A stretch of 64,000 nucleotides of DNA from Alloalcanivorax mobilis. GTDB taxonomy: Bacteria; Pseudomonadota; Gammaproteobacteria; Pseudomonadales; Alcanivoracaceae. The stretch covers positions 1 to 64,000 of the forward strand of contig NZ_NMQZ01000008.1 of the NCBI RefSeq assembly GCF_002864685.1, read 5' to 3'. The position numbers and the translations under genes are program-made. The notes under the pieces were generated by a model. That model did no database searches. It worked only from the letters and a program-made list of their open reading frames with translations, and had not been told where the DNA came from. Each line of letters begins with the position of its first letter. The first letter of the stretch is position 1. This document shows positions 13,272 to 50,937 of this stretch, piece by piece.

Positions 13272-13360
13272 GCTGCAAGCTACAAGCTACAAGCTGCAAG
13301 GGCGGCTACGTAGCGCGCGTTTTCCTTGCAGCTTGCAGCTTGCAGCTTGAAGCTTGAAGC
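13272..13360. repeat. Heptamer inverted-repeat element A (GCTGCAA-type)
   Basis: Two arms made of tandem 7-bp units. The left arm (13272-13299) has four units of type GCTRCAA. The right arm (13326-13360) has five units of type TTGCAGC or TTGAAGC, the inverse complement. The loop of 26 bases contains the palindrome GCTACGTAGC. The element fills the space between the convergent ends of maf and sppA and would form a stem of about 28 bp. It could serve as a bidirectional terminator, but it has no U-run. Confidence 0.9.
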
Positions 13361-13366
13361 TCACCT

Positions 13367-14356
13367 CTAACGCAACGTCGGCGCGCCGCCTTCCAGCCCC
13401 AGGCTTTTACCAATACCGCTGCCCACCGAGGTGCCGAAGCGCTTGAGCAGGCGGTCCACCGCCGAGGCGCTGACGCTGTAATCCACGGTTTCTTCGGTGC
13501 CGACCACGTCGCGGGCCACCTGGCCGGGGCTCTTGAGGCCGTCCACCAGGCCCAGCTCCAGGGCGCGCTGACCGGTCCAGAACAACCCGGAAAACAGCTC
13601 CGGGTGGCCGTCCACCTTGAGCCGGTCGCCCCTGCCCTGCTTGACCGCGGCGATGAACTGCTGGTGAATGTCATCCAGCATGCCCTGCAGATGCTGCCGA
13701 TCCGAGGGTTTCACCGGCGCGAACGGGTCGAGGATGTCCTTATGTTCGCCGGCGGTGTACACGCGGCGCTCCACGCCCAGCTTCTCGGCTGCCTCCTGGA
13801 TGCCGAAACTGGCCATGATTACCCCGATGGAGCCGACGATACTGGCCGGATCGGCGTAGATTTCATCGGCGGCGGAGGCAATGTAATAGGCGCCCGAGGC
13901 CCCCATGTCGGTGATCACCGCGTACAGTTTCTTGTCCGGGTGCTCGCCGCGCAAACGGCGGATTTCGTTGTAGACGTAATTGGCCTGCACCGGCGACCCG
14001 CCCGGGCTGTTGATCTTGAGCATCACCGCCTGGGCGTTTTCCGCCTCGAAGGCATCGCGCAGGCCCTCCACCAGCAGGTCGGCGCTGGCCGGCGAATCGG
14101 CGGCGATCACGCCGTTCACCTTGACCACCGCCACATGCGGCTCGGCAATGGCCAGGGCATCGCCGCCGCGATTGGAAAACATCATGAACAGCAGCGCGAA
14201 CAGGTAAATAAAGGTCAGGCTTTTAAAGAAGATGCCCCAGCGCCGGCTCTTGCGCTGTTCCGCCTGCGCCTGGCCCAGCAACTTCTCGATCAACGTCCAC
14301 TCACGGCCGGAAGGGCCCTCCCCAGAGCGGGGCCGTTGATTATTGTCGTATTCCAT
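13367..14356 (-). CDS. sppA: S49 family signal peptide peptidase SppA
   Basis: Membrane-anchored serine protease of the short SppA type, 329 residues, which degrades remnant signal peptides. One membrane segment (about residues 45-61) follows a charged cytoplasmic N-terminus. NSPGGSPVQA and DMGASGAYYIASAADEIYA (nucleophile Ser in GASGAYY) are family marks, followed by SIVGSIGVI. The catalytic Lys should lie downstream and was not pinned to a residue. It starts immediately after the gph stop. Confidence 0.9.
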   Translation of the reverse strand: MEYDNNQRPRSGEGPSGREWTLIEKLLGQAQAEQRKSRRWGIFFKSLTFIYLFALLFMMFSNRGGDALAIAEPHVAVVKVNGVIAADSPASADLLVEGLRDAFEAENAQAVMLKINSPGGSPVQANYVYNEIRRLRGEHPDKKLYAVITDMGASGAYYIASAADEIYADPASIVGSIGVIMASFGIQEAAEKLGVERRVYTAGEHKDILDPFAPVKPSDRQHLQGMLDDIHQQFIAAVKQGRGDRLKVDGHPELFSGLFWTGQRALELGLVDGLKSPGQVARDVVGTEETVDYSVSASAVDRLLKRFGTSVGSGIGKSLGLEGGAPTLR

Positions 14357-15034
14357 TTATACCGTCTCCTCGGACTGATGGCTGGCCGGCACCCCGATCA
14401 GGGGCAACAACTGCGGTAATGCATCGATCACCGCCAGGGGCTGATAGTTCAATAAGGTTTCCACCGGATGCGCGCCGTAACTGACCGCCACCCGGTCCAC
14501 GCCAGCGGCACGGGCCATCTCCAGATCGAACGAGGTGTCGCCCACCACCAGGGCGCGGCCGGCCGGCACCGCCATTTCCTCGAGCAACTCCTCGACCATC
14601 GCCGGGTGCGGTTTGGAGTGGGTTTCGTCGGCGCAACGCGAGCCCTGGAAGCACTCCCCCAAGCCGCTGCTGTGCCAGACCCGCTGCAACCCCTTGCGGC
14701 TCTTGCCGGTGGCCACCGCCAGCCGACAGCCCGCGCCCGCCAGGGCATCCAGCACCAGGCGGGCACCAGGATAAAGCGCGCTGGGCACTTGCTCGGCGGC
14801 CACGAAGTGCACCGCGTAGCGCTCCCGCAGCCGCTCAAGATGGTCATCGACAATGCCGGGCCAGAGCGTGCGGATCGCCTCCGGCAGCCCCAGGCCGATG
14901 ATGCCGCGCACCTGGTCATCCTCAAGCCGGGGCAGCGCCACGTCCGCGCCGGCCAGGTGCATGCAGGCGACAATGCGCCCGGTGGAATCCATCAGGGTGC
15001 CGTCCCAGTCGAAAATCACCAGATCGTAGTTCAT
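14357..15034 (-). CDS. HAD family phosphatase (phosphoglycolate phosphatase-like)
   Basis: HAD-IA hydrolase of 225 residues. Motif I is DWDGTLMDS, motif II is in VATGKSRKGL, motif III/IV in KPHPAMVEEL and VVGDTSFDLEMA. It is the usual neighbour of rluC in Pseudomonas-type genomes, where it is annotated as phosphoglycolate phosphatase or indigoidine-type hydrolase. The substrate cannot be fixed from sequence. I used the ATG at 15034, which overlaps the rluC stop. Confidence 0.88.
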   Translation of the reverse strand: MNYDLVIFDWDGTLMDSTGRIVACMHLAGADVALPRLEDDQVRGIIGLGLPEAIRTLWPGIVDDHLERLRERYAVHFVAAEQVPSALYPGARLVLDALAGAGCRLAVATGKSRKGLQRVWHSSGLGECFQGSRCADETHSKPHPAMVEELLEEMAVPAGRALVVGDTSFDLEMARAAGVDRVAVSYGAHPVETLLNYQPLAVIDALPQLLPLIGVPASHQSEETV

Positions 15035-15978
15035 CGACGCAGAGCCGCCAGAATGGTCTCGAAATCCTGATCCAGCGGCGCGGTCACCTTGACCGTTTTG
15101 CCACTGTCCGGGTGTTTGAACGTCAGCGAGCGGGCATGCAGGCACAGACGCCGGGTGCCGCCCAGCGCCTGCAGGCGCTGATCGCCGCGGTCGCTGCCGT
15201 ATTTGTCATCGCCAAGCAGCGGAAAGCCGCCAAACTGGCTGTGCACACGGATTTGATGGGTGCGCCCGGTGCCCAGAGTGGCCTCCAGCAAGGCGACGTC
15301 ACCGAGCCGCTCCAGCAGCCGGAAATCGGTCACCGAGGCCTTGCCCTCGCGGGACACCCGCACCACCCGCTCATTGCCCTGCATCATCTTCAACAGCGGC
15401 GCCTCGATGCGCCGCTCGCTGCCCTTGAAGCCCTGACACAGCAACCAGTAGCGCTTCTCCACCCCACCCTGCACCATCACTTTTTGCAAACGGCGCAAAA
15501 AAGCCCGGTGGCGGGTCACCATGATGCAACCGCTGGTGTCCCGGTCGAGCCGATGCACCAGCTCCAGGCTGGCTTCGTGCGGATACAGCACCCGCAGCGC
15601 CTCGATCAGCCCCAGGCTGACGCCGCTGCCGCCGTGCACCGCCAGGCCGGCCGGCTTGTTGAAGATGAACATGCGTTCATCTTCGTAGATCAGCGCGCGC
15701 GCGAGTCGCTCGGCCAGGCCGTCGCTGACCACCGGAGGCGCCTCCGACTCGCTGGTGCGAACCGGCGGCACCCGCACCACGTCGTCGGTGCACAACCGGG
15801 TGGTCTGCTTAGCGCGTTTCTTGTTCACCCTTACCTCGCCGGAACGGATGATCCGGTAGATACGGGAACGGGGCACCCCTTTGAGATGGGTGATCAGGAA
15901 ATTATCCAGGCGTTGGCCGTCGCGCCCCTCATCGATGGTAACGAAGGTGACACGATCGGCGGCGGGAGTGTCGGACAT
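15031..15978 (-). CDS. rluC: 23S rRNA pseudouridine synthase RluC
   Basis: Pseudouridine synthase of 315 residues. The N-terminal S4 RNA-binding domain spans LDNFLITHLKGVPRSRIYRI. The catalytic domain has HRLDRDTSG with the nucleophilic Asp. The divergent position next to rne is diagnostic for RluC (U955, U2504, U2580 in E. coli) over RluD. I used the ATG at 15978; a TTG 18 bases upstream is possible. Confidence 0.92.
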   Translation of the reverse strand: MSDTPAADRVTFVTIDEGRDGQRLDNFLITHLKGVPRSRIYRIIRSGEVRVNKKRAKQTTRLCTDDVVRVPPVRTSESEAPPVVSDGLAERLARALIYEDERMFIFNKPAGLAVHGGSGVSLGLIEALRVLYPHEASLELVHRLDRDTSGCIMVTRHRAFLRRLQKVMVQGGVEKRYWLLCQGFKGSERRIEAPLLKMMQGNERVVRVSREGKASVTDFRLLERLGDVALLEATLGTGRTHQIRVHSQFGGFPLLGDDKYGSDRGDQRLQALGGTRRLCLHARSLTFKHPDSGKTVKVTAPLDQDFETILAALRR

Positions 15979-16060
15979 GCGGCGAATTCTAGCCAAGCCG
16001 GCGCGCCGGCGCTAGCGCTGACCGGGTCCGCGTGCAAGTAAACACGGCGGCGCTATCTGA

Positions 16061-16090
16061 TTGATCGCACAGTCATTTTACTGCTATAGT
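16061..16090 (+). promoter_or_regulatory. Extended -10 promoter for rne
   Basis: TTGATC (16061-16066) and TATAGT (16085-16090) are separated by 18 bases, and the -10 is preceded by TGC, an extended -10. It points toward rne, about 590 bases upstream of its ATG. It also lies near the divergent rluC start. No other comparable promoter was seen in the gap. Confidence 0.6.
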
Positions 16091-16676
16091 CCGGTGTCGG
16101 CCGCGGCTGGCCAACGGCGACGCGCAGCGACCATTCGCCGTCGGTTCTAAGATACCCGCCAGCCCCGCCCGATACTATGTCGAACAGGCCCGAAACCGGG
16201 CCCCGACGCTGCAAACGACCCCCCGATGGCACAATCGACCTCGGCGGGTCGGACAACCAACGACAGGTGGTTTGCAGCCGGTCGAAGACAAGCCAGGCCG
16301 GTGACAGGCCTCGGGACCACGCCGCTCTATTGTTATCAGGGCGTGGAACACGGGACGATCCGTCACTGATCTGAGCCGGTACAGACAGACAAAAGTTTAC
16401 CCGGTCCGGTGCCGCGATTTGCACCGGACACAGCGTGACGCAGGATTCACGGGCCAAGGCCCCCGAGCAATAACGCCAACGGCACAACTTCGTATGAGCC
16501 CGGAGACATCAGGAAGAGCGACAACAGGAACACCATGATCGTGTGGAGCGCTGCGCGCCGCCACCCGTGACGATGCCCCCTGTCCGGCTTTTCCATGCTC
16601 CACCAGGGCGACTGATCTGATACCGGGCGCATACCGGCCCGCTGCACGCCGCCACGAACCTTGTGGTAGCACAAAA
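16091..16676 (+). other. Long untranslated leader of rne
   Basis: About 586 bases lie between the predicted promoter and the rne start and contain no supportable gene. RNase E messages in E. coli carry a 361-base leader through which the enzyme controls its own mRNA, and conserved leader motifs (rne5, rne-II) are known in gammaproteobacteria. By analogy this is a candidate autoregulatory leader. I did not derive a fold. Confidence 0.5.
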
Positions 16677-19600
16677 ATGAAACGTATGTTGATCAACGCC
16701 ACTCACCCCGAAGAGGTTCGGGTGGCACTGGTGGACGGCCAGCGTCTTTATGATCTGGATATCGAACACCGTACCCGCATTCAAAAAAAGGCCAATATCT
16801 ATAAGGGTAAAATCACCCGTATTGAGCCCTCCCTGGAAGCCGCCTTCGTGGACTTTGGCGCCGAGCGCCACGGCTTTCTGCCCCTGAAGGAAATCTCCCG
16901 CCAATACTTCCAGAAAGACCCCAAGGACATTCAGGGCCGCATCAACATCAAGGATGTGATGCGCGAAGGCCAGGAAGTGATCATTCAGGTCGACAAAGAA
17001 GAGCGTGGCAACAAGGGCGCCGCCCTGACCACCTTTATCAGCCTGGCTGGCCGCTACCTGGTGCTGATGCCCAATAACCCCCGCGCCGGCGGCATCTCCC
17101 GCCGCATCGAGGGCGAGGAACGTCAGCAGCTCAAGGAAGCGCTGAGCAGCCTGGATATCCCCGACGAAATGGGCGTGATCGTGCGCACCGCCGGGCTCGG
17201 CCGCTCCGCCGAAGAGCTGCAGTGGGATCTCAACTACCTGCTCAAGCTGTGGAGCTCCATCGCCGAGGCCTCGGAAACCCGCAAGGCGCCGTTCCTGATT
17301 TATCAGGAATCCAACGTCATCATTCGCGCCATCCGCGATTACCTGCGCAAGGACATCGGTGAAGTTCTGATCGATTCCGAGAAAGTCTACAACGAAGCCC
17401 AGGCGTTCGTTCAGCAGGTGATGACCGACTTCCAGCACAAGATCAAACTCTACAACGACGACACGCCGCTGTTTTCCCGCTATCAGATCGAATCGCAGAT
17501 CGAAACCGCGTTCGAACGGGAAGTGAAACTGCCCTCCGGCGGGTCCATCGTGATCGATCCCACCGAAGCGCTGGTGTCCATCGACATCAACTCCTCACGC
17601 GCCACCAAAGGCGCCGACATCGAGGAGACCGCCCTGCAGACCAACCTGGAAGCGGCGGAAGAGATCGCCCGCCAGTTGCGTCTGCGTGACATCGGCGGCC
17701 TGATCGTGGTCGACTTCATCGACATGGGGCCGGCGCGCAATCAGCGCGACGTGGAAAACCGTATCCGCGAAGCCCTGGAGGCGGACCGCGCGCGCATCCA
17801 ACTGGGCCGCATTTCCCGCTTCGGCCTGCTCGAATTGTCGCGCCAGCGGCTGCGCCCCAGCCTCGGTGAGACCTCCAGCATCGTCTGCCCCCGTTGCGAC
17901 GGCCTCGGCCACATCCGCGACGTGAAATCCCTGGCGCTGAGCATCCTGCGCTTGATCGAAGAAGAAGTGATGAAGGAACGCACCGGGGAAATCCAGGCCC
18001 AGGTGCCGGTGGCGGTGGCCACCTTCCTTCTCAACGAGAAGCGCCAGGTGCTGCGTGAAATCGAAACCAGCCACAATGTCCGCCTGCTGGTGATTCCCAA
18101 CCCGCACCTGGAGACCCCGCACTTCCAGGTGGAGCGCATCCGCGACGACCAGACCAAGGATCAGATCAGCCACGAGCTGGATCTTCTGGAAGCGCAACCG
18201 GAGCCAAGCGCGCCCAACGCCCAGGAAAACGCGCCCAAGCCCCAGGAACCGGCGGTCAAACTGATCGCCCCGGACACCGCGCCCCCGGCGCCGCGCCCCG
18301 CCGCCGAAGCGCCCGCCAAACCGGCCGCCGCGCCGCCGACCGCCGCCGCCCCCGTGTCGAGCGGCGTTCTGGCGCGCTTTTTCCTGTGGCTGGCCAGCCT
18401 GTTCTCCGGCTCGGACAACAGCAAAGACAGCGCCAAGACCGCGAAAAAAGGCAAAGCCGGCGACGCCCAGCGTCGTAACCGGGACGAACGCGGCGCCAAA
18501 GGCGACACTCGCAACCGCCGCGACACCGGCAACCGCCGTGGCGGCAACCGCTCCGACGACCGCGATGACCGGCGTGGCGGTGACAACCGCCGCCGCAACG
18601 ACAACCGCGCCGGTGGCGCCAACGACAAAGGCGAGAAAGGCGGCGACAACCGCAAAAGCGCCGACGCCAACGATGACAACGGCGGCGATAACCGCAATGA
18701 AGGCGGCAATCGTCGCGGCGGCCGCAACCGTCGTGGTGGCCGTGGCGGACGCAACAACGACGCCCGGCAAGCCGACAACAAGCAGGCCGACAATCGCCAA
18801 AACGACAGCAAGCCCGACAGCGGCAAAGGCGCGGAAAAAGCCCCTGAAAAGGCCCCCGAGAAAGCCGCCGCCGATAAGGGCGACAAGCCAGCCCGCAAAG
18901 ACGACGGCCCGAAAGCCCAGCGCCGCAACGATGCCAAGGACGACCGCCCGCTGCGCGAACGTCAGCGCCCTAACAGCAACAACAATGGTGGCAACGACAA
19001 CGGTGGCAACAACAAAGCCGCCGATGCCGTTGCCCAGCCCCCCGTCGCGGAGGGTAACCAGGCCGCCGGTGACGACGCCGCTGCCGCCACGCCGCCGCGC
19101 ATGACCTCCGAGGACAATACCCCCGGACGGGACCAGGAGCGCGGTGACAACCGTCACCCGAAAGCCAAGCTGGTGCCGCCGGAACCGGGCCAGCCGGCCC
19201 GGGAAGTGCAGTCTCGCGCCAGCAACGGCAACGACAACCAGGCCAAGCCCGCCAACGCTGACACCACCGCTCAGGATGGCCAGCCCAAAGCCGCCAACCA
19301 AACGGCACCGGAACAGGCCCCGGCGGTGAAACCCGCCGAGGCCGCTCCCCAGGCCCAGCCGCAGCCACCGGCGGCGGCCAAGGAACCGGTGAAAGAACCG
19401 ATAAAAGAACCGGTAAAAGAGCCGGCCGAAGAGGTCAAGGAACCGGCCAAGGAGCCGGTTAAAGAGCCCGTTAAGGAGACCGTTAAGGAGACCGTTAAGG
19501 AGACCGACAAGGAAGACGCGCCGCAACCGCCCCACGCGCCGACCTCCGAGCAAGCCAAACCGGCACCGGCGGTCGCCGCTCAGAACGCCGAACCCCGGCC

Positions 19601-20144
19601 AACCGCCCCGGCGGCCCCCCAGCCGGATAAAATCGCCGAGCGTAAAGAACCGGCGGTGCCAAGCGACAAGCCGCCGGCGGACACCGGCGCGGAACCCGCC
19701 GATGCCCACCCGGTCACCGAGCCACGGCCCGCCGACAAGGCAGCGGTCCAGCCGGAAGACGACAAGGCAGCGTCGGAAGACGACGCCAGCCGGGCCGGCA
19801 ACGACCCGCGCGCCCGTGGCGCGGCACCCGCGCCCGTCGCCGAGCCGGCCAAGCCGGAAAGCCCGGCGCCGGTGACCGAGCCGGTACGTCAGCCCGAAGC
19901 GCAGGCGCCGTCCGCTGCCAAACCGGTCAGCGAACCGCAGCCCGAGCACCAGCAACCGGAACCCGAAGCCACAACCCCGGCACCGAAACCGGAAGCGCCG
20001 AAAGCGGTGACGCCGGAACCGCCGGCGGCCGCACCGCAACGCCCCCAGGGCCGGGCCAGCAATGACCCGCGCCTGCGTCGCCGGCAGCAACAAGCCGAGC
20101 AACAGGCAAAAGCGGACAATCAGGACGCCGATCCCAGCGCCTGA
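16677..20144 (+). CDS. rne: Ribonuclease E
   Basis: Endoribonuclease and degradosome scaffold, 1155 residues. The catalytic half (about 1-510) has the S1 domain ([18 protein letters not shown]), DNase-like site [10 protein letters not shown] and VVDFIDM with the two metal-binding Asp residues, and the zinc-link CPRCDGLGH. The C-terminal half is low-complexity. It holds a hydrophobic helix [14 protein letters not shown] (about 563-576) that should attach it to the membrane. An Arg/Asn/Gly/Asp-rich RNA-binding stretch follows, then a Lys-Glu-Pro repeat region (about 902-945) and two NDPR motifs (AGNDPRAR and [10 protein letters not shown] near the end). The tail diverges fast among relatives, so partners such as enolase or PNPase sites cannot be read off. 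Confidence 0.95.
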
Positions 20145-20156
20145 TTGACCCGCTGA

Positions 20157-20198: not shown

Positions 20199-20264
20199 TT
20201 CATCGCGCTTTAGCTGGAAATCGATTCGGGAGGTCTCTATCCGGGACGCGAATCTGTGTGGGTG

Positions 20265-20463: not shown

Positions 20464-20484
20464 CTGATCCCTGAATCCTGATCC
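20464..20484. repeat. Short heptamer array G (CTGAATC-type)
   Basis: Three consecutive 7-bp units, CTGATCC, CTGAATC, CTGATCC. The middle unit is the exact inverse complement of the GATTCAG units at 34601-34614. It lies just outside the murB stop codon. It looks like one remaining arm of the heptamer class. Confidence 0.55.
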
Positions 20485-23810: not shown

Positions 23811-25551
23811 TGCCGACGTCGGCGAAGTCCATTTTATAGAGCTGGGTGTAGAGGCCATTGTTCTCCAGCAGTTGCGCATGGCTGCCCTGCTCGATCAACT
23901 GCCCCTGGTCCAGTACCAGGATACGGTCGGCTTTCTCGATGGTGGAGAGCCGGTGGGCGATCACCAGGGTGGTGCGCCCTTTCATCAACCGCTCCAGCGC
24001 GCGCTGGATATGATGCTCGGATTCCGTGTCCAGCGAACTGGTCGCCTCATCGAGGATCAGGATCGGAGCGTCCTTGAGCAGCGCGCGCGCGATCGCCACC
24101 CGTTGCCGCTGGCCGCCGGAAAGCTGGGCGCCGTCCTGGCCCACGGTGGTGTCCAAGCCCTTGTCCAGATTGCAAATAAAATCCCAGGCGAAAGCGTTGC
24201 GGGCCGCCGCCTCGATGGCCGCGTCGTCGGCGCCGCGCATTTCGCCGTAGGCGATGTTGTTGCGCACCGTGTCGTTGAACAGCACCACTTTCTGGCTGAC
24301 CATGGCGATCTGATGGCGCAGATGCGCCAGCTTATAGTCAGCCAGGGGCACGCCATCAAGCAGCACCTGGCCCTGGTCCGGGTCAAAAAAGCGCGGCAGC
24401 ATCGCCGAAATCGTACTTTTGCCGGCACCGGAGCGGCCCACCAGCGCCACCGTTTCTCCACTTTTCATGGAGAAACTGAGGTTATTCAGCACCGGCTGGG
24501 CCGGGTCATAGCCAAAGCTGACATTGCGGAATTCGATATTGCCCTGGGTGCGCGCCAACTCGCGGCTGCCGTCGTCGGGCTCGGCGGGGCGGTCCATCAA
24601 CTCAAACAGCGAGGCGGCCCCGGTCAGGCCACGTTGGATCTTCACGTTCACGTCGGTAAGCTGCTTAAGCGGCTTCTGCACCATGCCCGCCGCGGCGATG
24701 TACGACAGAAAACCGCCAACGGTGAGGTTTTCGCCCATCAGCGTGATGTACAGGTAGGTGATCACGCCAATGCCCACCGCCACGAACAGTTGCACGATCA
24801 CCGTGGAGGCGATCTTACTGGCGTTGAGTTTGGTGTTCTGACGCGCAAAGCGGCGGCTGACGGTATGAAAACGGTCGCCCTCGAGTTTCTGGCCACCGAA
24901 AATCTTAACCGCCTGATTGCCTTCGATGGCTTCACCCAGGTACTGGGTGATGTTGCCCATGGACGCCTGAATGCGCCGGCTGATCTTGCGAAAACGCTTG
25001 CTGGTCAGATTCACCACCAGCCCGATCACCGGGGCCACCACCAGCAGAATCAGCGTCAGTTTCCAGTTCTGCCAGAACAGAAAACCGAGCAACCCGATCA
25101 CCGACAACCCCTCGCGCACCATCACCATGATGGCATCGGTGCCGGCGCTGGTAACCTGCTGGGCGTCGAAGATGATTTTCGACATGATGCGCCCGGAGGC
25201 ATTGTTGTTGTACTCCGCCTGGGGCAGACGAAGCACATGGCCAAACACCTCGTTGCGCAGCCGGTAGACGATTTCCTGGGCCACCCAGGCCAGCGAATAG
25301 CTGCCCATGAATTGCCCCACGCCCTGGGCCAGCGCCAGGGCCAGCGGCGCGATCGACACCACCAGCACCCGCGCCGGCGTGGGATTGACCACCGTCTCAC
25401 CCAGGTAGCCGGCCAATTGCGCCGCCGCCGCCTGGGTGGCGGCATAGATGGCGTACCCGAACACACTGGCCAATAGAATCAGCCAGTGCGGCTTAACGTA
25501 AGCAAGCAAACGTTTGTAGGTCTGCCAGGAATCATCCGGTAGTTGGCTCAT
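23803..25551 (-). CDS. msbA: Lipid A export ATP-binding/permease MsbA
   Basis: Lipid A flippase, 582 residues, homodimeric half-transporter. The N-terminal six-helix membrane domain spans about 1-320. The ATPase has Walker A GRSGAGKST, signature LSGGQRQR, Walker B ILILDEATS and the H-loop AHRLST. It sits directly upstream of lpxK, the usual pairing. Confidence 0.96.
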   Translation of the reverse strand: MSQLPDDSWQTYKRLLAYVKPHWLILLASVFGYAIYAATQAAAAQLAGYLGETVVNPTPARVLVVSIAPLALALAQGVGQFMGSYSLAWVAQEIVYRLRNEVFGHVLRLPQAEYNNNASGRIMSKIIFDAQQVTSAGTDAIMVMVREGLSVIGLLGFLFWQNWKLTLILLVVAPVIGLVVNLTSKRFRKISRRIQASMGNITQYLGEAIEGNQAVKIFGGQKLEGDRFHTVSRRFARQNTKLNASKIASTVIVQLFVAVGIGVITYLYITLMGENLTVGGFLSYIAAAGMVQKPLKQLTDVNVKIQRGLTGAASLFELMDRPAEPDDGSRELARTQGNIEFRNVSFGYDPAQPVLNNLSFSMKSGETVALVGRSGAGKSTISAMLPRFFDPDQGQVLLDGVPLADYKLAHLRHQIAMVSQKVVLFNDTVRNNIAYGEMRGADDAAIEAAARNAFAWDFICNLDKGLDTTVGQDGAQLSGGQRQRVAIARALLKDAPILILDEATSSLDTESEHHIQRALERLMKGRTTLVIAHRLSTIEKADRILVLDQGQLIEQGSHAQLLENNGLYTQLYKMDFADVGNG

Positions 25552-29563: not shown

Positions 29564-29569
29564 AAAAGA

Positions 29570-29647
29570 GTTTTCAGTTTTCAGTTTTCAGTAAAAGACG
29601 CCGCCCGGAGAGGCGTGTTGTCTTACTGAAAACTGAAAACTGAAAAC
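29570..29647. repeat. Heptamer inverted-repeat element B (AGTTTTC-type)
   Basis: A perfect 23-bp inverted repeat: 29570-29592 against 29625-29647. Each arm is built of three tandem units of type AGTTTTC (inverse CTGAAAA) plus two bases. The 32-base loop continues the fold with AAGAC/GTCTT and CGCC/GGCG pairings, so almost the whole element can form a cruciform. It lies between the convergent ends of the DUF2062 gene (7 bp away) and lolD. Confidence 0.93.
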
Positions 29648-33692: not shown

Positions 33693-34595
33693 ATGCGCGT
33701 CGCCGTGATCCAGCAGCACAACAGCGCCGACCTGGACGACAATCTGTCGCGCTCGATGGCGAAGATTCGCGAAGCCGCCACCGGCGGAGCCGAGCTGGTG
33801 ATGCTGCAGGAACTGCATCGCAGTCTGTATTTCTGCCAGACCGAGGACACCGACGTGTTCGATCTGGCCGAGACCATCCCTGGCCCCACTACCGATGCGC
33901 TGGGCGCGCTGGCCGATGAACTGAACATCGTGATCGTCGGCAGCCTGTTCGAAAAGCGCGCCACCGGTCTGTATCACAACACCGCCGTGGTGCTTGAGCG
34001 CGATGGAACCCTGGCCGGCATTTATCGCAAGATGCACATCCCCGACGATCCCGGCTTCTATGAGAAGTTCTACTTCACTCCCGGCGACGCCACCTTCAAC
34101 GACCAGCGCTCCGGCTTCACACCGATCAACACCAGCGCCGGCAAACTGGGGCTGCTGGTGTGCTGGGATCAGTGGTACCCGGAAGCGGCGCGGCTGATGG
34201 CGCTGGCCGGCGCTGAACTGTTGCTCTACCCCACCGCCATCGGCTGGGACCGCAGCGACGACAACGATGAACAGCAACGTCAGTTGGACGCCTGGATCAC
34301 CGTGCAGCGCGCCCACGCCGTGGCCAACGGTGTGCCGGTGCTGGTCGCCAACCGCACCGGCTTCGAACCGGCCCCCCACACCACCCGCGACAGCGACGGC
34401 ATTCAGTTCTGGGGCAACAGTTTTATTTGCGGCCCGCAGGGCGAGTATCTGGCCCACGCCGGCCAGGACGGTGAAGAGATCCTGATCGCCGACATCGACA
34501 AACGCCGCTCCGAAGACGTCCGCCGCATCTGGCCCTATCTGCGCGACCGCCGCATCGACGCCTACGGCGATCTGACCAAGCGTTACCGGGATTAA
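33693..34595 (+). CDS. aguB: N-carbamoylputrescine amidase
   Basis: Nitrilase-superfamily amidase of 300 residues that completes the AguAB route. The catalytic Glu-Lys-Cys triad is visible in LQELHRSLYFCQ, YRKMHIPDDPGFYEKFYF and LLVCWDQWYPEAARL. The ATG at 33693 has GGAG eight bases upstream, within the aguA stop region. An in-frame extension inside aguA was rejected as Arg-rich. Confidence 0.95.
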   Translation: MRVAVIQQHNSADLDDNLSRSMAKIREAATGGAELVMLQELHRSLYFCQTEDTDVFDLAETIPGPTTDALGALADELNIVIVGSLFEKRATGLYHNTAVVLERDGTLAGIYRKMHIPDDPGFYEKFYFTPGDATFNDQRSGFTPINTSAGKLGLLVCWDQWYPEAARLMALAGAELLLYPTAIGWDRSDDNDEQQRQLDAWITVQRAHAVANGVPVLVANRTGFEPAPHTTRDSDGIQFWGNSFICGPQGEYLAHAGQDGEEILIADIDKRRSEDVRRIWPYLRDRRIDAYGDLTKRYRD

Positions 34596-34600
34596 CAGCG

Positions 34601-34614
34601 GATTCAGGATTCAG
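34601..34614. repeat. Short heptamer array F (GATTCAG-type)
   Basis: Two identical units GATTCAG followed by a decayed one (GATAGAG), directly after the aguB stop codon and before the convergent tusA stop. The unit is the inverse of that at 20464-20484. Only one arm is present. Confidence 0.55.
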
Positions 34615-34628
34615 GATAGAGCCGGGCG

Positions 34629-37179: not shown

Positions 37180-37292
37180 AGTTAAAAGTTCAAAGTTAAA
37201 AGTTGAAAGGTCCGCACTGAAACGATCTTGCACGGCCCCACCGTTGGCATGCGTCAACCCGCGTTTCAACTTTTAACTTTCAACTTTCAACT
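37180..37292. repeat. Heptamer inverted-repeat element C (AGTTGAA-type) nested in REP pair
   Basis: Left arm 37180-37207: four units (AGTTAAA, AGTTCAA, AGTTAAA, AGTTGAA). Right arm 37265-37292: four units of type TTCAACT or TTTAACT, the inverse. Pairing is good in 26 of 28 positions. The 57-base loop separates them. The whole is bracketed by inverted REP-like sequences, giving a nested element of about 180 bp between purU and rlmM, both on the minus strand, so it lies on any purU-rlmM transcript. Confidence 0.92.
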
Positions 37293-39962: not shown

Positions 39963-39964
39963 GG

Positions 39965-44139: not shown

Positions 44140-44226
44140 GGGTTGCTCTCCTGACGGGGCAAAGGCGCGGCGTTGCTGGCGCGCGAAATCGGTAGCCGAA
44201 TGGCGGCGTTCAGTGTGTTCAAGGGA

Positions 44227-45036
44227 TTAACCGTTGCTGACCCGGCGAAAACGCACCCGGTCGCTTTCCGGTTCGGGCAGCGGCGTCACGCCGTCGGACT
44301 GTTCGAACTGATCCATCAACGCGCGGCGGTGCCCCTGAAACGAGGACGACGCCGTGTCCCTTGGCCACGGCAACGGCACCGCCATTTCATTTTCGATACG
44401 GCCCGGGTTACGGGTCATGATCAGCACCCGGTCGGCCATCAGAATCGCTTCGTCGATGTCGTGGGTCACGGTCACCAGGGTGATGCCACGGGCGCGGCAA
44501 ATAGCGGTGACTTCCTGCTGAAGGCTGGCCCGGGTAAAGGCGTCCAGCGCCGAGAACGGCTCGTCCAACAACAGCACATCCGGATGGGTGGCCAACGAAC
44601 GCGCCAGCGCCACCCGTTGCTGCTGCCCGCCGGACAGGCTCTGCACGTTGACCGTGCTGCTGTCGGCCAGCCCCACCAGATCGAGAAGCTGGTCCACTTT
44701 GTCGCGCACTTCGGCCTTGCCGGTGCCGGCGAACTCCAGCCCCAGCCCGACGTTCTGGCGCACGTTCATCCAGGGGTACAAAGAGGGCTTCTGGAACATC
44801 ATGTTCCACTTCGCCGAGGGGCGGACCACTTGGCGGCCATTGATGCGCACGCAGCCCTCGCTGGGCAGCAACAGGCCGGCCATCATGTGCAGAAGGGTGG
44901 ATTTACCGCAGCCACTGCGTCCGATCAGCACCGCGCATTCGCCGCTGCCAATCTGGTTCTCGATGCCCTCGAGCACGGTGCTGGCACCGGGCTTATAGCG
45001 ATGGGAAATGCCGTCGAGGCTGATGGATGCGCCCAT
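44227..45036 (-). CDS. ABC transporter ATP-binding protein, nitrate/sulfonate/cyanate type
   Basis: ATPase of 269 residues and first gene of the importer operon. Walker A is GRSGCGKSTLLHMMAG, signature LSGGQQQR, Walker B VLLLDEPFSALD, H-loop VTHDIDEA. I chose the ATG at 45036 because GGAG lies nine bases upstream. An ATG at 45066 is possible but leaves only about 11 bases after the predicted sigma-54 start site. The binding-protein gene follows after 87 bp. Confidence 0.9.
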   Translation of the reverse strand: MGASISLDGISHRYKPGASTVLEGIENQIGSGECAVLIGRSGCGKSTLLHMMAGLLLPSEGCVRINGRQVVRPSAKWNMMFQKPSLYPWMNVRQNVGLGLEFAGTGKAEVRDKVDQLLDLVGLADSSTVNVQSLSGGQQQRVALARSLATHPDVLLLDEPFSALDAFTRASLQQEVTAICRARGITLVTVTHDIDEAILMADRVLIMTRNPGRIENEMAVPLPWPRDTASSSFQGHRRALMDQFEQSDGVTPLPEPESDRVRFRRVSNG

Positions 45037-45087
45037 GTGTGGATACTCCGCTGACAACTGGCCCAATCGGGTCGATGTGTACTCAAC

Positions 45088-45104
45088 AGCAGAAACCGTG
45101 CCAG
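45088..45104 (-). promoter_or_regulatory. Sigma-54 promoter for the ABC importer operon
   Basis: On the minus strand the sequence reads CTGGCACGGTTTCTGCT, close to the sigma-54 consensus TGGCAC-N5-TTGC. The -24 GG lies at 45101-45102 and the -12 GC at 45089-45090, with correct spacing. Transcription would begin about 45078, some 40 bases before the ATPase start codon. The only deviation is CTGC for TTGC. Confidence 0.8.
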
Positions 45105-45280
45105 ATCACAAAAAAGCAGCGAAAGTGCTCTTGCGACGTCATCATCCAGCCGCGTTCAAAAAGCGGAAAAAAAAAATAAAACCTTTCCCATCAAACACCT
45201 GCAAGCAACATTCAAACGATCGTATCGGCCTGGAAAAAATCGGCGGGATACAGCGAATCTACCCGCCCCTTACCGATCAC

Positions 45281-45307
45281 GACAATGCGACAAAATGAAT
45301 CATTGTC
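45281..45307. repeat. Dyad GACAATG-N13-CATTGTC
   Basis: Perfect 7-bp inverted repeat with arms at 45281-45287 and 45301-45307. The right arm runs into the direct element starting at 45302. It is probably part of the binding region of the sigma-54 activator for the importer promoter, which it precedes by about 180 bases. A matching dyad GACAAAG-N15-CTTTGTC lies at 45461-45489. Confidence 0.6.
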
Positions 45308-45329
45308 CGCTTTGTTGGACTTTGTCCGA
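45302..45329 (+). promoter_or_regulatory. Candidate upstream activator site 1
   Basis: A 28-base element with internal GTC-N10-GAC symmetry, beginning ATTGTCCGCTTTG and ending GACTTTGTCCGA. It is nearly identical to 45484-45511 (about 24 of 27 aligned bases, one base shifted on each side). It lies about 200 bases from the -24 box of the importer promoter, a normal distance for an enhancer-binding protein. Confidence 0.7.
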
Positions 45330-45483
45330 CCGGGCTGACCACGCCCATGCGAAGCCCGCCGGCGCCGGGCCCAACACCATCGATGCTTTATATAAAGCAG
45401 AGGGAGCTGTCGCTTGAGCGGCGGCGAAACTCACCGCCCGCCCGCCATGAACAATCAATCGACAAAGATGGACATTGTCATTC

Positions 45484-45511
45484 TTTGTCCGGCTTTGCTG
45501 ACTTTGGCCGA
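45484..45511 (+). promoter_or_regulatory. Candidate upstream activator site 2
   Basis: Second copy of the element, beginning TTTGTCCGGCTTTG and ending GACTTTGGCCGA, with the same GTC-N10-GAC core. It lies about 115 bases upstream of the -24 box of the osmC-like promoter. The dyad GACAAAG/CTTTGTC at 45461-45489 overlaps it, and GGACATTGTC lies between the arms. Confidence 0.7.
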
Positions 45512-45623
45512 GTCTCCTTACGCGCGCCAGAATCGCCGGAATCAACCCTTCATGGCGATTTTTTTATTTCTAACATTTTGTTTTATAAGGACTATTTTTT
45601 AAAAATTGTTTTCCCGCGTGATA

Positions 45624-45640
45624 TTGGCACAAGGCTTGCC
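45624..45640 (+). promoter_or_regulatory. Sigma-54 promoter for the osmC-cyanase operon
   Basis: The sequence TTGGCACAAGGCTTGCC matches the sigma-54 consensus (TGGCAC-N5-TTGC) exactly in both boxes. The -24 GG is at 45626-45627 and the -12 GC at 45638-45639. Transcription should start near 45650, giving a leader of about 75 bases before the TTG start codon of the first gene. Confidence 0.9.
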
Positions 45641-45724
45641 CTGTCTCTGGCAGAAGCCTGAACGGCGGGATAAATGACCAGCTCCCTGCCCCGCCGCTTT
45701 TCTCTCAAAAAAAGGAGTAGTCCC

Positions 45725-46276
45725 TTGAGCAACCCAAGCACCGCCAAAACCGTCAGCACCTACCTACGCCCGATTGATCGCGACGGCCTGCTCGGCTTCG
45801 CGGAGAAAGGCCGTAACAACCCCAACAGCCGGGGCACCAACAAGGTCCACACGGTTTGCGAAGGCCAATACCGCACCCTTAGCTATGTCGGCGAACACCA
45901 GCCGGTGGTGGTGGATGAGCCGCCGCACCTGTTCGGCCAGGACACCGCGCCAGCACCCGGGGAGATCGTGTTGTCCGCGTTGGGCGGCTGCCTGGCGGTG
46001 GGGATCACCGCGGTGGCCACCTGGAAAGAAGTGAAGTTGTCCCGCCTGGAGCTGTTTCTGGAGGGCGACATCGGCAACCCGGCCGCCTGGGGCGCCGGCG
46101 GCGCGCAGCGCATTCCCTCGCAAATGGGCTTCCAGGAAATCCGTGTGCGGGTGCTGCTGGAAGGCGACGCCAGCCGTGAGCAGCTCGACGACATCGTGCA
46201 GCAGGCCAACTACTTTTCGCCGGTGGCCAACACCATGCGCAACCCGATCAACTTCGAGATCGCGCTGGCCGATTGA
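45725..46276 (+). CDS. OsmC family protein
   Basis: OsmC/Ohr-fold protein of 183 residues. ALGGCLAVGITAVAT holds the conserved Cys89; Cys45 (HTVC) could be its partner. Classic members reduce organic hydroperoxides, and others bind thiols or small anions. I chose the TTG start at 45725 because AAAGGAG lies seven bases upstream. An ATG at 45674 has only a poor site. It is the first gene behind the sigma-54 promoter, 50 bases before the flavoprotein gene. Confidence 0.87.
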   Translation: MSNPSTAKTVSTYLRPIDRDGLLGFAEKGRNNPNSRGTNKVHTVCEGQYRTLSYVGEHQPVVVDEPPHLFGQDTAPAPGEIVLSALGGCLAVGITAVATWKEVKLSRLELFLEGDIGNPAAWGAGGAQRIPSQMGFQEIRVRVLLEGDASREQLDDIVQQANYFSPVANTMRNPINFEIALAD

Positions 46277-46326
46277 CACACGCACGCCGTGGCCGGCCGC
46301 GCCGGCCACGGCAAAGGGAGACGCCT

Positions 46327-47481
46327 ATGAACAGCGCGCAACCAATCGCCCCGGCCAGCGCCGATGCCGACGAGCAGTTCCTGGACACCGTCACCGGAAT
46401 CGCCGATGGGCCGCTGGCGGGCCTTGCCAATCGCATCGACCAGGAAGGCTATTATCCACTGGATATCATGGCCCAACTTGGCCAGGCCGGTGCTCTCGGT
46501 GCCCATCTGGACGGCAACGGCCAGCGCTTTGATCTGGCCATCGCCGCCATGCAAAGAGTCAGCCGCCGCTGCGGCACCACCGGTTTCCTGGTCTGGGCCC
46601 ATCAGGTGTGTGGTCTTTACCTTGAACAGTCCGGAAACCCCGCGCTCAGTGGCGAGCGCCTTGCCGCGCACAGTCAGGGCCTGCGCTTCGGCGGCACCGC
46701 TTTGTCCAACCCGATGAAAGCGCTCTCCGGCATCGAGCGCATGGCATTGGTGGCCAACCCGGACGGCGATGGCTACCGGGTGAATGGTGTGCTGCCGTGG
46801 GTCAGCCATATTGGCGCCGGCCAGTATTGCGGCGCGCTGGCCGCGGTGCGCGATGCCCAGGGCAACGATCTCGGCGAGATCATGTTCCTGCTCGACTGCG
46901 ACGACCAGGTGGAGCTGCGCCAATGCCCCGCCTTCGCCGGCATGGAGGGCAGCTCCACCTGGGGCATCCGCCTCAACGATTATCCGGTGACGCCGGAGCG
47001 GATCATCGCCAGCCCGGCGCGGCCCTTTATCGCGCGGATTCGCGGCGGTTTTATTCTGCTGCAGGTGGGCATGGCCCTGGGAGTCGCCGAAGGCGCCCTG
47101 GAATCGATGATCGACGTGGAAGGCCAGCTTGGCCACGTCAATCAGTTCCTCGACGACCGCCCGGCGCAGTTGCAAGCAGAGCTGGCCGACATGATGCAAC
47201 GTCTGGCCACCCTGGCGCGCACCCCCTACGACACCTCCCGGGATTATCTGCTCGATGTGCTTGATCTGCGCGCCCAGGGCGCGGAGTTCGCCCTGCGCGC
47301 CGCGCAATCGGCGATGCTGCATCAGGGCGCGCGCGGCTATGTGCTTTCCGCCGCCGCCCAGCGACGCCTGCGCGAAGCCCAATTCGTCGGCATCGTCACC
47401 CCCGCCATCAAGCACCTGCGTTGGGAAATGGATCAGTTGTCCCGCGAACAGTGGCCGCAACCTCGGGAGGGGGCGCAATGA
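46327..47481 (+). CDS. Acyl-CoA dehydrogenase-fold flavoprotein, possible flavin monooxygenase
   Basis: A 384-residue member of the acyl-CoA dehydrogenase superfamily. [16 protein letters not shown] is the middle-domain mark, and [24 protein letters not shown] is the C-terminal helix region. The N-terminal half is divergent and no acyl-CoA-binding or catalytic Glu signature could be recognised. It may therefore belong to the oxygenase branch (DszC/SfnB-like), which uses reduced flavin. The following rubredoxin-reductase gene overlaps it by four bases, suggesting an electron-transfer partner. The start has GGGAG upstream. Confidence 0.82.
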
Positions 47482-48845
47482 GCGAACAGCAGCGCGCCTG
47501 GCGCCAGTACATTTGCCTGGCTTGCGGCCTGATCTACGACGAGGAGCAAGGCGACCCGGACGGCGGCCTGCCGCCGGGCACCCGCTTTGAAGACATCCCC
47601 GACGATTGGGAATGCCCGCTGTGCGGTGTCGGCAAAAGTGACTTCGAACTCTACGAGCCGCCGGCGGCGGCCGCCGCACCGCCGCCGGCCCCGGCCAGCG
47701 CGCCCAGCCGCGACGGCATCGTTATCGTGGGCGCCGGCATCGCCGGCTGGAGTGTCGCCCAGGCAGTGCGAGCCCTGGATCGCGAGATTCCGATTACCCT
47801 GGTGACCGCCTGCCAGGGCGACGTCTACCACAAGCCGGAGCTGTCGGTGGCGATCAGCCGCGATCTGGCCAGCGAACAGCTGGCCCGGGAAAGTGGTGCC
47901 GACGCCGCCCGGCGCCTGGGTGTGCGGCTGCTGAGCGACACCTTCGCCGTGGGCCTGTCGCCGGCTCTGCGGCAACTGCGCACCACCCGCGGCACCCTGA
48001 ATTACCGCGCCCTGGTGCTGGCCCACGGGGCCCGCCCGGCTCTGCCGGCGGTGCTGCCCGCCAGCCTCTGCTGGCGCATCAATCATCTGCACGGTTTCGC
48101 CGGGCTGCGCGCCGCGCTGCACGGCGCCACGCGTCGAGTGGCGGTGATCGGCGCCGGCATGATCGGCTGCGAACTGGCCGAGGATCTGGCCCAGGCCGGG
48201 CACAGCGTGACCCTGGTGGATCGCCAGCAGGCACCGCTGGAAAGCCTGCTACCCGCGCCGGCCACCAAACGGCTGGCCCGCCACCTTGCCGATCTTGGTG
48301 TCACCTTCATGGGCGGCGTGGAGATCACCGCCCTGTCCGCTGACGCCAACGGCAAACGCATCGACACCCGCTGCGGCCAGCACCTGGAAGTGGACGAAGT
48401 AGTCGCCGCCACCGGGCTGATCACCGAATCCCGGCTCGCCCGCCAGGCCGGCCTGGCGTTCGAGCGCGGCATCATCGTCAACGCCCGTACCCTGGCCACC
48501 AGCGCCGAACACGTTTATGCCCTGGGCGATTGCATCAGCCTGGAAGGCGCCCCGTGCCGTTTTATCGAACCGATTGCCCGCCAGGCGGAAGCCATCGCCC
48601 ACGCCATGCTCGGCATCGAGCACCCCGGCTACGGCCACCGGACACCGGTGGTGCGCCTGAAGACCCGGCGCCTGCCGATCGTGCTGCGCGGCGAACACAG
48701 CCCCGACCAACCCTGGAGCGTGGTCACCGACGACCCCGATTATCTGTTGATGGAGCAGCGCCGTGACGGCCGCGCCATCTCAACCCTGAGCGTGGGTCAG
48801 CCGCGCACCGCACCGCCTTCAACCACCCTGGAGATGCAACCATGA
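47478..48845 (+). CDS. Rubredoxin fused to FAD/NAD(P)H-dependent rubredoxin reductase
   Basis: A 455-residue fusion. Rubredoxin occupies about 1-60 with iron ligands Cys13, Cys16 ([13 protein letters not shown]) and Cys46, Cys49 ([16 protein letters not shown]). An Ala/Pro-rich linker (about 61-78) joins it to a pyridine nucleotide-disulfide-type reductase with FAD motif VIVGAGIAG (about 83-90), second motif [15 protein letters not shown] and [12 protein letters not shown]. Electrons would pass from NAD(P)H over FAD to the rubredoxin iron inside one chain. Alkane-degrading bacteria usually encode the two parts separately. The start overlaps the flavoprotein stop as ATGA. Confidence 0.93.
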
Positions 48846-49291
48846 TTGCCAACCGTACCGATGTCACCGAGATGATCCTTGCCGCCAAGGTGTCCAAGGG
48901 CCTGACCTGGTCTTCCGTGGCCGACGCCGTCGGCCAGAGCAAGGAGTGGACCACCGCCGCCTGCCTGGGGCAGATGGCGCTCAGCAAACAGCAGTCACAA
49001 ACCGTCGGCGAGTTGTTCGGACTCTCCGACGAAGCGGTCGCCTGGCTGCAGATCGTGCCGCACAAAGCCGGCGATTCCGACACCCAGCACAAGGACCCGC
49101 TGATCTACCGGCTCTACGAAGTGGTGCACGTTTACGGCGGCGCCATCAAGGAACTGATCCATGAGGAATTTGGCGATGGCATCATGAGCGCCATCGACTT
49201 CGACCTGGACATTCAGCGCCAGCCGGACCCGAAAGGCGATCGGGTGAAGGTTCTGATGACCGGGAAATTCCTGCCCTACAAACAGTATTGA
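48842..49291 (+). CDS. cynS: Cyanate hydratase (cyanase)
   Basis: Cyanase, 149 residues, splits cyanate plus bicarbonate to ammonia and two CO2. The catalytic Arg90 and Glu93 lie in [16 protein letters not shown] and Ser116 in GIMSAIDF. The N-terminal helical domain starts with the normal [12 protein letters not shown] motif. The C-terminus ends [10 protein letters not shown]. The start overlaps the reductase stop by four bases. No carbonic anhydrase gene accompanies it. Confidence 0.96.
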
Positions 49292-49298
49292 GGGAAGG

Positions 49299-49443
49299 CT
49301 GGACGCTAGACGCTGGACGCCAGACGCTTAACCCGCTGCTGGAAGGTTTGGTGTGTTTTCTGCCAGGGCGTTACAGAAAACACTCCGCAGCCTTCGGAGC
49401 CAAGGTTGAGCGTCCAACGTCTAGCGTCCAGCATCCAGCGTCC
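49299..49443. repeat. Heptamer inverted-repeat element D (CTGGACG-type)
   Basis: Left arm 49299-49326: four units (CTGGACG, CTAGACG, CTGGACG, CCAGACG). Right arm 49411-49438: four inverse units (CGTCCAA, CGTCTAG, CGTCCAG, CATCCAG) plus CGTCC. The 84-base loop holds a perfect 10-bp hairpin GTGTTTTCTG/CAGAAAACAC (49353-49362 and 49374-49383). It begins eight bases after the cynS stop and ends before the porin ribosome binding site, so it may cut the porin off from the operon. Confidence 0.93.
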
Positions 49444-49498
49444 GCCGACCACCGCGATGGCCGGCCCTCTCCGGTCATCGCCCCTTGGGGATTTTGCT

Positions 49499-50737
49499 AT
49501 GCGCTTTGTTACGCCCATTATGCTGGGCGCGGCCCTTGCCGTGCCGTTCGCGGCCCAGGCCGCGCCTTCGAACACGCTTGCTTCGGCATTCAGCGACGGC
49601 ACGCCGATTCTTGATCTGCGCTATCGCTACGAATTCGTCGACCAGGACAACCGTCTCGACAACGCCCACGCCCAAACCCTGCGCACCCGTGTCGGTTTCG
49701 CCACCGCGCCGCTGTACGGGTTTTCCGCCATTGTTGAAGCGGACAACGTGACCCGCCTCGGCGCCGAGCGCTACAACGACAGCCGCAACGGCAAAAGTGA
49801 TTACGCCCTGGTGCCGGACCCGGACGGCACCGCCATCAACCAGGCCCTGCTGCGTTATCAGGGTGAATACGCCAACGTGACCGTGGGCCGGCAACGGTTC
49901 GGCCTGGACAACCAGCGCTACATTGGTGGCGCCGCCTGGCGGCAGAACGAGCAGACCTTCGACGCCGCCAGCCTGGTGCTCAACCCCAGCGACCGACTGA
50001 CTCTTACCTACGCCTACATTGATCAGGTCAGCACCGTCTTCGGCCCGGACGGCCATAACGGACACCCCAACAACGCCGCCACCATCGACAGCGACAGCCA
50101 CCTGATCAACCTGGCCTATGCGTTCTCCGCCGCCCTCAAGGCGACCTTGTACTACTACCATTTCGATTTGCAGGATCTGGCGCTCAGCCCCACCGCGCCT
50201 TATCAGACCCAGTCCACCAACAACGCTGGGATACGTCTGACCGGCACTTACCATGATCTGATCTACAGCCTGGAATACGCCAACCAGAAAGACGCCGCTG
50301 GCAACCCCTGGCGTCTGGACAGCGATTACTATCTGGCCGAGCTGGGATATCAACACACCACCTGGATGGTGAAAGCCGGCTATGAAGTGCTCGGTGGCGG
50401 CAACGGCCCCAACGGCGCTTTCCAGACGCCGTTGGGCACCAAGCATCTTTACCAGGGCTGGGCGGATCAGTTTCTGGTGACCCCGGCGGACGGCATCAAG
50501 GACGCCTACCTGGGCGGCACACTGGCGTTGCTGGGCGGCAAACTACAAGGCTGGTACCACGACTTCCGCGCCGAACAGGGCGGCGATCGCTACGGGCGCG
50601 AAATCAACCTCGCCTACGGCCATCCGATCCCCGGCGTCAAAGGCCTGATGGCAACGGTGAAGGCAGCCCGCTACCGCGAAGAGGGTTTCTCGGTGGACAC
50701 CGACAAAGCCTGGGTACAGCTTCAATACAGCTATTGA
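49499..50737 (+). CDS. Outer membrane porin (alginate-export-like beta barrel)
   Basis: A 412-residue beta-barrel protein. The signal peptide ends about AAQAA at residue 17-19. The mature part alternates polar and aromatic residues, with repeated turns such as LDLRYRYEFVDQDNRLDNAHAQ, RTRVGF and a C-terminal VQLQYSY whose aromatic end suits Bam recognition. The family resembles the alginate-export (AlgE-like) or OprD-like porins seen by eye. The ligand is unknown. It may bring the substrate of the cyanase cluster into the periplasm. Confidence 0.82.
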   Translation: MRFVTPIMLGAALAVPFAAQAAPSNTLASAFSDGTPILDLRYRYEFVDQDNRLDNAHAQTLRTRVGFATAPLYGFSAIVEADNVTRLGAERYNDSRNGKSDYALVPDPDGTAINQALLRYQGEYANVTVGRQRFGLDNQRYIGGAAWRQNEQTFDAASLVLNPSDRLTLTYAYIDQVSTVFGPDGHNGHPNNAATIDSDSHLINLAYAFSAALKATLYYYHFDLQDLALSPTAPYQTQSTNNAGIRLTGTYHDLIYSLEYANQKDAAGNPWRLDSDYYLAELGYQHTTWMVKAGYEVLGGGNGPNGAFQTPLGTKHLYQGWADQFLVTPADGIKDAYLGGTLALLGGKLQGWYHDFRAEQGGDRYGREINLAYGHPIPGVKGLMATVKAARYREEGFSVDTDKAWVQLQYSY

Positions 50738-50912
50738 GTGGATCGTCTCGTACCTTGATCTCGTGGCCCGTCGCCACGGCGATGGCCGACAACCGAGGGC
50801 CACGATAGCGGATGCCTGAAGCCGGTCTATTCAGGCAGCCTGAGGTCACGAAAACGGCAATTGCGAGGCCGCAAAGCCGGCCGCGTGGGGTTTTGATTCC
50901 AGCGTCCGGCGT
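50738..50912. other. Short intergenic stretch between convergent genes
   Basis: About 175 bases between the porin stop and the DUF454 gene stop. A dyad GCCTGA...TCAGGC with inner TCAGG/CCTGA lies at about 50814-50844. It has no T-run. No gene is visible. Confidence 0.5.
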
Positions 50913-50937
50913 CTAGCGCCTAACGTCCAGCGTCCGC
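50903..50937. repeat. Heptamer array E, single arm (CGTCCAG-type)
   Basis: Five consecutive units: CGTCCGG, CGTCTAG, CGCCTAA, CGTCCAG, CGTCCGC. These are of the same kind as the right arm of element D 1.5 kb away. No inverse arm is present nearby. The array overlaps the last codons of the DUF454 gene, which end at 50913. Confidence 0.85.

Follow-up and report, generated by a model that had tools for sequence, protein, structure and literature searches.

Tandem arrays of seven-base units have been described in the intergenic DNA of several bacteria. In Xanthomonas, arrays of the heptamer GGGAATC lie between genes, form convergent inverted pairs (70 in one genome and 75 in another), are situated much nearer the upstream gene (at an average of 28 nt) than the downstream gene, are few in divergent gaps and vary between species; this one G-rich unit has been studied as a G-quadruplex (PMC4692102). 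The TAACTGA heptamers of Beggiatoaceae are, like the elements described below, intergenic, but unlike them they are mostly direct repeats placed upstream of start codons, with one inverted case (PMC4679880). A bacterial excess of heptamers has been noted since 2007, and the passages of these two papers that cite it offer no explanation beyond slippage (PMC4692102, PMC4679880). Here we analyse a stretch of 64,000 nt from Alloalcanivorax mobilis (contig NZ_NMQZ01000008.1, positions 1 to 64,000), which as a whole we refer to as the window, and describe elements in which two inverted arms made of tandem heptamers enclose a loop at the end of a gene. As in the published account of Xanthomonas, the present genome has intergenic arrays of period 7 whose convergent inverted pairs follow shortly after the upstream gene. 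The host, an oil-degrading marine bacterium, has a genome of 4.1 Mb with 63% GC in the sample studied.

Results

The preliminary description of this window, made from its sequence without database searches, had proposed that its heptamers form a class with a constant period of seven and a changing unit. That such a class exists has been confirmed. In 1,002,352 bases of the window's genome, counting runs at a score of at least 10, we found 84 intergenic and 10 genic runs of period 7, as compared with zero to five intergenic runs for each of the other periods from 4 to 20 (leaving aside 14, the double of 7). When the intergenic sequence was shuffled three times under a first-order Markov model no period-7 run arose, and a chance origin is thus excluded for the heptamer arrays as a class. 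The runs group into 64 sites, 37 of which carry two or more arrays and six of which are intragenic, gene positions being those of a home-made codon-usage caller in which we noticed one error (a hydrolase gene ending at 34595 was missed). Among 48 loci of other taxa (320 kb) there was no period-7 excess (two runs, against 12 at period 12 and nine at period 9), and five period-7 runs were counted in 150 kb of the wider Alcanivorax group (23 loci). By far the longest array that we saw, an almost perfect run of about 80 AGCTTGC units (~570 bp), occupies a gene-end gap in contig 27 of the window's genome (locus L016, ~8048-8620).

When two arrays lie less than 200 bp apart in this genome they are nearly always inverted (36 of 38 pairs, with none direct and two tied). 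The arrays are not one family by descent: four main unit families recur with fixed polarity, namely F1 (AGCYNCA), F2 (CGCYNGA), F3 (AGTTRAA) and F4 (AGTKTTC). The earlier statement that the heptamer differs from site to site thus holds insofar as there are several units, but the unit is not freely variable and instead belongs to one of a few recurring families. The same arm comes first in 34 of the 37 multi-array sites (12 F3, 12 F2, 5 F1, 4 F4 and 1 F5); one of the remaining three has the opposite polarity, with a unit nearly identical to its own reverse complement, and two are of mixed family. In the register that we set, position 2 is G in all 373 units counted, and variation is concentrated at positions 4-5 in F1 to F3 and at positions 3-4 in F4. 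Judged by eye, the inner borders are family-specific, CGCGG often following F3 arms and TAAA or TTAACC following F2 arms, and the outer flanks have no shared sequence. Short sequences are common to some loops at different loci of one family. Folding is stronger at paired sites than in shuffled sequence (median z of -3.6 over 37 sites). Of 20 single arms no more than 120 bp from the end of a gene, 14 stand in the sense of the first arm and six in the opposite sense. We also saw, by eye, what appears to be an AGTTRAA element nested between F1-type arms (contig 12 of the window's genome, 203176-203405); together with an AGTTRAA element of the window that lies between inverted sequences resembling repetitive extragenic palindromes (REPs), this makes it seem that palindromes nest inside palindromes. 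Some of the heptamer elements contain REP-like sequences or have them nearby.

The unit in use changes between related species. Our genus set comprised 13 genomes, the window's own (G000) and 12 others (G001 to G012). In the gap between purU and rlmM a two-arm element is present in eight of them (the window's genome, G001, G002, G003, G007, G008, G010 and G012), the contig of G011 stops after the first arm, and no element is found in G004, G005, G006 or G009. The units at this gap are AGTTRAA in the window and G003, AGTKAAY in G001, G007, G008 and G010, and AGTTGAY together with AGTGGAY in G002 and G012; of the 23 loci from beyond the genus, at least three (L102, L104 and L113) carry, by eye, still other heptamers there. 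Differing units at the same gap were also found between species at five gaps besides purU. Matches to triple units, which are not counts of elements, numbered 51-127 each for F3 in G000, G003, G004 and G009, and 78-161 each for AGTKRAY in G001, G002, G007, G008, G010, G011 and G012; mixed or low genomes were G006 (57 AGTKRAY, 8 F3) and G005 (3 AGTKRAY, 2 F3), and G000 itself had 5 for AGTKRAY. For F2 the matches were 614 in G000, 464 in G012, 112 in G005 and at most 12 in the other genus genomes; for F1 they were 235 in G000, 141 in G003, 49 in G010 and at most 18 elsewhere in the genus. A class-wide search found F1 in four and F3 in five of 274 genomes, the window's own counted, and since this search is blind to other units it is no measure of how widespread the architecture is. 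A distant gammaproteobacterium of another family (G206, 48% GC in its sample) had nine sites, all of them in the five stretches chosen at matches and none in the other 14, and we therefore claim no enrichment. At one of its loci (L244, 5365-5468 and 11083-11179) AGTTRAA pairs of the same polarity lie between convergent genes, with arms at most 6 bp from both stops. At another gap of the genus (position 25165 of the joined stretch in G001), G012 has a gap of 960 bp in which some 16 GACGCCG units are followed by a long loop rich in REPs and then by the inverse arm; G001 has just three such units and G002 about two, and neither has the second arm.

Comparison of orthologous gaps between relatives, a course that had been suggested for this window, indicated that whole elements have been inverted and exchanged. 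The comparison covered six gaps in G001, G002, G011 and G012, and some of them also in G010. Units with G at position 5 made up 46 of 47 in G002 and 34 of 44 in G012, as against 1 of 33 in G001 and none of the 30 in G011 or the 16 in G010; at gap b1 of G012 the left arm is old and the right arm new. Gap a1 lacks an element in G010, the sequence being too diverged for borders to be defined. Loops have flipped between species at two of the six gaps: at purU, the identity between G002 and G012 is 98.5% with one inverted and 86.6% as they stand, and at a2 that between G001 and G011 is 98.1% inverted and 77.9% as they stand. A third loop, at b2, has probably flipped between G002 and G001, the signal there being weaker (80.5% inverted, 74.7% as is). 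At three of the six gaps (purU, a1 and a3) the history of the element is shown to contradict that of the adjoining genes. Here the elements of G002 and G012 are 96.6-98.5% identical (with 46 gap columns at a1) and their flanks 89-95%, whereas between G002 and its closer relatives G001 and G011 the flanks are 93-98% identical and elements in the same orientation just 73-77%. At purU and a3 the border of the element is sharp to within ~100-200 bp on either side. Because ordinary recombination tracts usually bring along more flanking DNA, we read this discordance as exchange confined to the element.

We note a larger rearrangement at L279 of G002 (1133-1966), where pdxJ lies inverted between heptamer elements relative to L274 (G001) and L275 (G011); the inverted region is 84-85% identical between G002 and these two genomes and the flanking genes 95-97%, and this is possibly a gene-size inversion by way of heptamer arms. 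By eye, a same-looking insertion sequence is present in or beside a heptamer element at L251 (G002, ~8300-9715) and, after purU, at L110.

With respect to genes, the heptamers had been placed outside or at the edge of coding sequence. Gene edges are indeed involved, and more exactly the 3' ends, where all seven sites of the window lie. At the 33 sites of the window's genome in tandem gaps, the median distance is 6 bp from the upstream stop to the heptamers and 46 bp from the heptamers to the next start, and 25 of the 33 are nearer the stop (p=0.0025). Convergent gaps hold 19 sites against 8.9 expected from gap counts, and divergent gaps are under-represented whether expectation is taken from gap count (5 sites against 14.6) or weighted by length (against 12.2). 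In the clade with AGTKRAY units, 23 paired elements in convergent gaps reach almost from one stop codon to the other, with a median of 6 bp of the gap left uncovered, as compared with a median of 65 bp for element-free convergent gaps (n=53; p=0.004), the loci of this clade having mostly been chosen at such units and the 23 elements including orthologues of one another. Elements of this clade thus mostly leave little outside room for another terminator, and it is mainly for this reason that we infer a role at transcript ends, in which the hairpin of the element may terminate or insulate transcripts arriving from either side. A GC stem with a T-run on at least one strand is found in 6 of 10 loops from G001, G011 and G010, in 6 of 11 from G002 and in 0 of 3 from G012. 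A period of seven brings any triplet into all three frames, and most AGTTRAA or AGTKRAY units contain TAA or TGA; the common F1 and F2 units are mostly free of both, so that we rejected the supply of stop codons as a general explanation.

Within the window, heptamers are present at all seven places given in the preliminary description, to within a few bases, and four of these places have the two inverted arms ascribed to them (Table 1). Each of the four folds as one long stem. The arrays at 20464 and 34600 are weak if taken alone. No F2 unit was found in 50738-50900, next to the single F2 arm, and the DUF454 match of the gene at that site scores under the NCBIfam curated cut-off. No Rfam RNA family matched above its gathering threshold anywhere in the 64 kb.

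Table 1. Heptamer sites of the window and the genes beside them
Feature	Position	Strand	Structure	Gene context and fold
F1 element	13272..13361	.	arm 13272-13300 (AGCYNCA type), loop 13301-13324, inverse arm 13325-13361	flanked by convergent maf and sppA, their stops 24 bp (maf) and 5 bp (sppA) away; one-stem fold
Weak single array	20464..20484	-	3 imperfect units; murB-strand reading AGGATTC/AGGGATC	12 bp past murB stop
F4 element	29569..29647	.	arm 29569-29592 (AGTTTTC), loop 29593-29624 with own hairpin, inverse arm 29625-29647	5 bp past stop of DUF2062 gene; fold -45.4 kcal/mol
Single array	34600..34617	+	2.6 units AGGATTC	4 bp past stop of carbon-nitrogen hydrolase gene
F3 element	37180..37292	.	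arm 37180-37209 (AGTTRAA), loop 37210-37263, inverse arm 37264-37292	48 bp past purU stop; flanked by two inverted REP-like sequences
F2 element	49298..49443	.	arm 49298-49327 (CGCYNGA), loop 49328-49410 with inner hairpin, inverse arm 49411-49443	6 bp past cynS stop; fold -86.1 kcal/mol
Single F2 arm	50899..50935	-		overlaps 3' end of DUF454-like gene

Discussion

On balance we lean towards the view that these elements are palindromic gene-end cassettes whose heptamer arms serve both as a long stem and as handles for inversion and exchange. Such a cassette consists of a head-to-tail heptamer arm of one family and fixed polarity, a family-typical inner border, a loop and an inverse arm, with some cassettes being one-armed. 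Tandem heptamers can pair in any seven-base shift, and it is this property that might allow them to act as recombination handles: pairing of the inverted arms would flip the loop, pairing of two cassettes would lead to exchange, and one version of an arm could spread through a genome by such pairing. The hairpin may at the same time stop or insulate transcription from both sides.

Several observations weigh against one or other part of this view. As regards transcript ends, the convergent excess is lost under length weighting (19 sites against 14.7 expected, p=0.23), and the stop-to-stop fit is weaker in the window's genome (medians of 22 and 39 bp, p=0.18). In this genome a GC stem followed by a T-run occurs in 5 of 36 loops as compared with 40 of 600 random windows, which is no clear enrichment. 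T-run stems are, moreover, equally frequent in convergent gaps of 60-400 bp with (5/17) and without (10/30) an element, and with no exclusion between the two we rejected the idea that the elements replace T-run terminators. As regards exchange, five of the six compared gaps were selected because G002 has a newer AGTTGAY arm there, and gap a1 is informative on its right side only, the flanks of G011 and G012 being themselves 98.4% alike. Furthermore, elements of the same type are as conserved as their flanks or more so (97.5-100% against 94-98% between G001 and G011), so that strong selection for conservation in some lineages offers an alternative to exchange.

A bolder form of the cassette reading, which we regard as speculative, is that a dedicated recombination system uses the heptamer words as addresses, flips loops and swaps whole hairpin cassettes between alleles or loci. 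A drift in the specificity of such a system would change the word throughout a genome and give rise to species dialects (AGTTRAA, AGTKAAY, AGTTGAY and others), and the elements would then be a bacterial counterpart of foldback elements and serve as exchangeable terminators or insulators.

It is possible, though in our judgement unlikely, that the elements are instead non-autonomous mobile elements of the type of miniature inverted-repeat transposable elements (MITEs) or REPINs, with a transposase or site-specific recombinase recognising the arms, copying elements to new gene ends and flipping loops. Terminal inverted repeats are, as in MITEs, found at many dispersed copies, and a 28-bp order of arm units together with its inverse partner is repeated at many places in G002 among those listed; the fixed polarity, the inverted loops, the sharp borders and the nesting seen by eye would also fit. 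However, we found neither a target duplication nor a clean, high-identity pair of filled and empty sites, the elements keep to the same gaps without hopping, and no transposase, recombinase or reverse transcriptase turned up, though no search aimed at such an enzyme was made.

That the arrays are ordinary simple-sequence repeats appears improbable. Slippage by seven bases could be favoured, as in a published idea involving polymerase contacts, and arrays might survive behind genes because they are harmless there; the heptamer excess known in several bacteria (PMC4692102, PMC4679880) and the wide range of unit numbers, up to the ~80 units of L016, would agree with this. Slippage does not, however, yield inverted pairs that keep one polarity, inner borders characteristic of each family, a small set of units recurring throughout a genome, loop inversion or element replacement, and the preliminary description was right to hold it insufficient on its own. 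We give still less credence to uptake-signal-like words, that is, words preferred by a DNA-uptake receptor, spread by transformation and settled as inverted pairs at terminators. The DNA uptake sequences (DUSs) of Neisseria do have dialects and inverted pairs (PMC3630211), and here too the dialects are species-specific and almost mutually exclusive and inverted pairs sit at gene ends, but one genome holds several unit families, the arrays are tandem, just 6 of 64 sites are intragenic, and transformation tracts would be expected to bring flanking DNA with them. Finally, the building of arms in place, by template switching at hairpins of the replication fork that copies one arm into the other, had been suggested at the outset and is very improbable for the window's genome, since variant units do not follow a mirror-image order in the two arms (27 testable sites, mean excess -0.003, p=0.88), the arms of a site share unit composition in F2 (slightly above chance, p=0.03) but not in the other three families (F1, p=0.86; F3, p=0.92; F4, p=0.49) and the same families occur at many unlinked sites, even if the purU arms of G002 and G012 do match with the same unit order.

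Among known systems, REPINs and the REP-containing bacterial interspersed mosaic elements resemble the present elements in being dispersed, extragenic inverted doublets that can form hairpins; REPs themselves are short palindromes linked to REP-associated tyrosine transposases (RAYTs), whereas the elements described here have arms of tandem heptamers rather than palindromes of 20-40 bp (PMC3116915). The BrickBuilt MITE of Porphyromonas gingivalis is likewise intergenic, with a tandem repeat and small inverted ends, but its 23-nt unit lies in the body and not in inverted arms, and it is found 49-591 nt from genes (PMC4596501). Neisseriaceae DUSs share species dialects and inverted pairs at terminators, but are, in that account, 10-mers in thousands of single copies, often intragenic, without tandem arrays (PMC3630211). 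In the Xanthomonas heptamers there is one G-rich unit (PMC4692102), whereas here there are several, and the common units of the four main families lack GGG. Units without G-tracts thus share the Xanthomonas layout, so that a quadruplex is not the common denominator, and we set aside a G-quadruplex reading of the present elements. Eukaryotic foldback elements, in which short tandem repeats form inverted arms around a variable loop, are similar in this plan and are much longer, and they are not known for a place at gene ends.

The heptamers described here are part of a larger object, which has a polarity, borders, a place directly after stop codons and traces of past inversion and exchange, and the question of the heptamer excess thereby becomes testable. 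If it is true that the arms direct exchange, bacteria would possess modular cassettes at gene ends, which alleles and species could trade while the adjoining genes stay unmoved. In the titles and abstract openings of the open-licence literature we found no such elements in Alcanivorax and no inversion or exchange of heptamer-armed elements. A relative with one unit is known in Xanthomonas, and we found no description in that literature of the diversity of units, the inversion or the exchange. That these elements are flipped or swapped as units in related species hints that gene ends carry exchangeable elements of a kind not described before. Set beside the published account of the Xanthomonas heptamers (PMC4692102), what we report for the present elements is loop inversion, element exchange and a fit from stop to stop.

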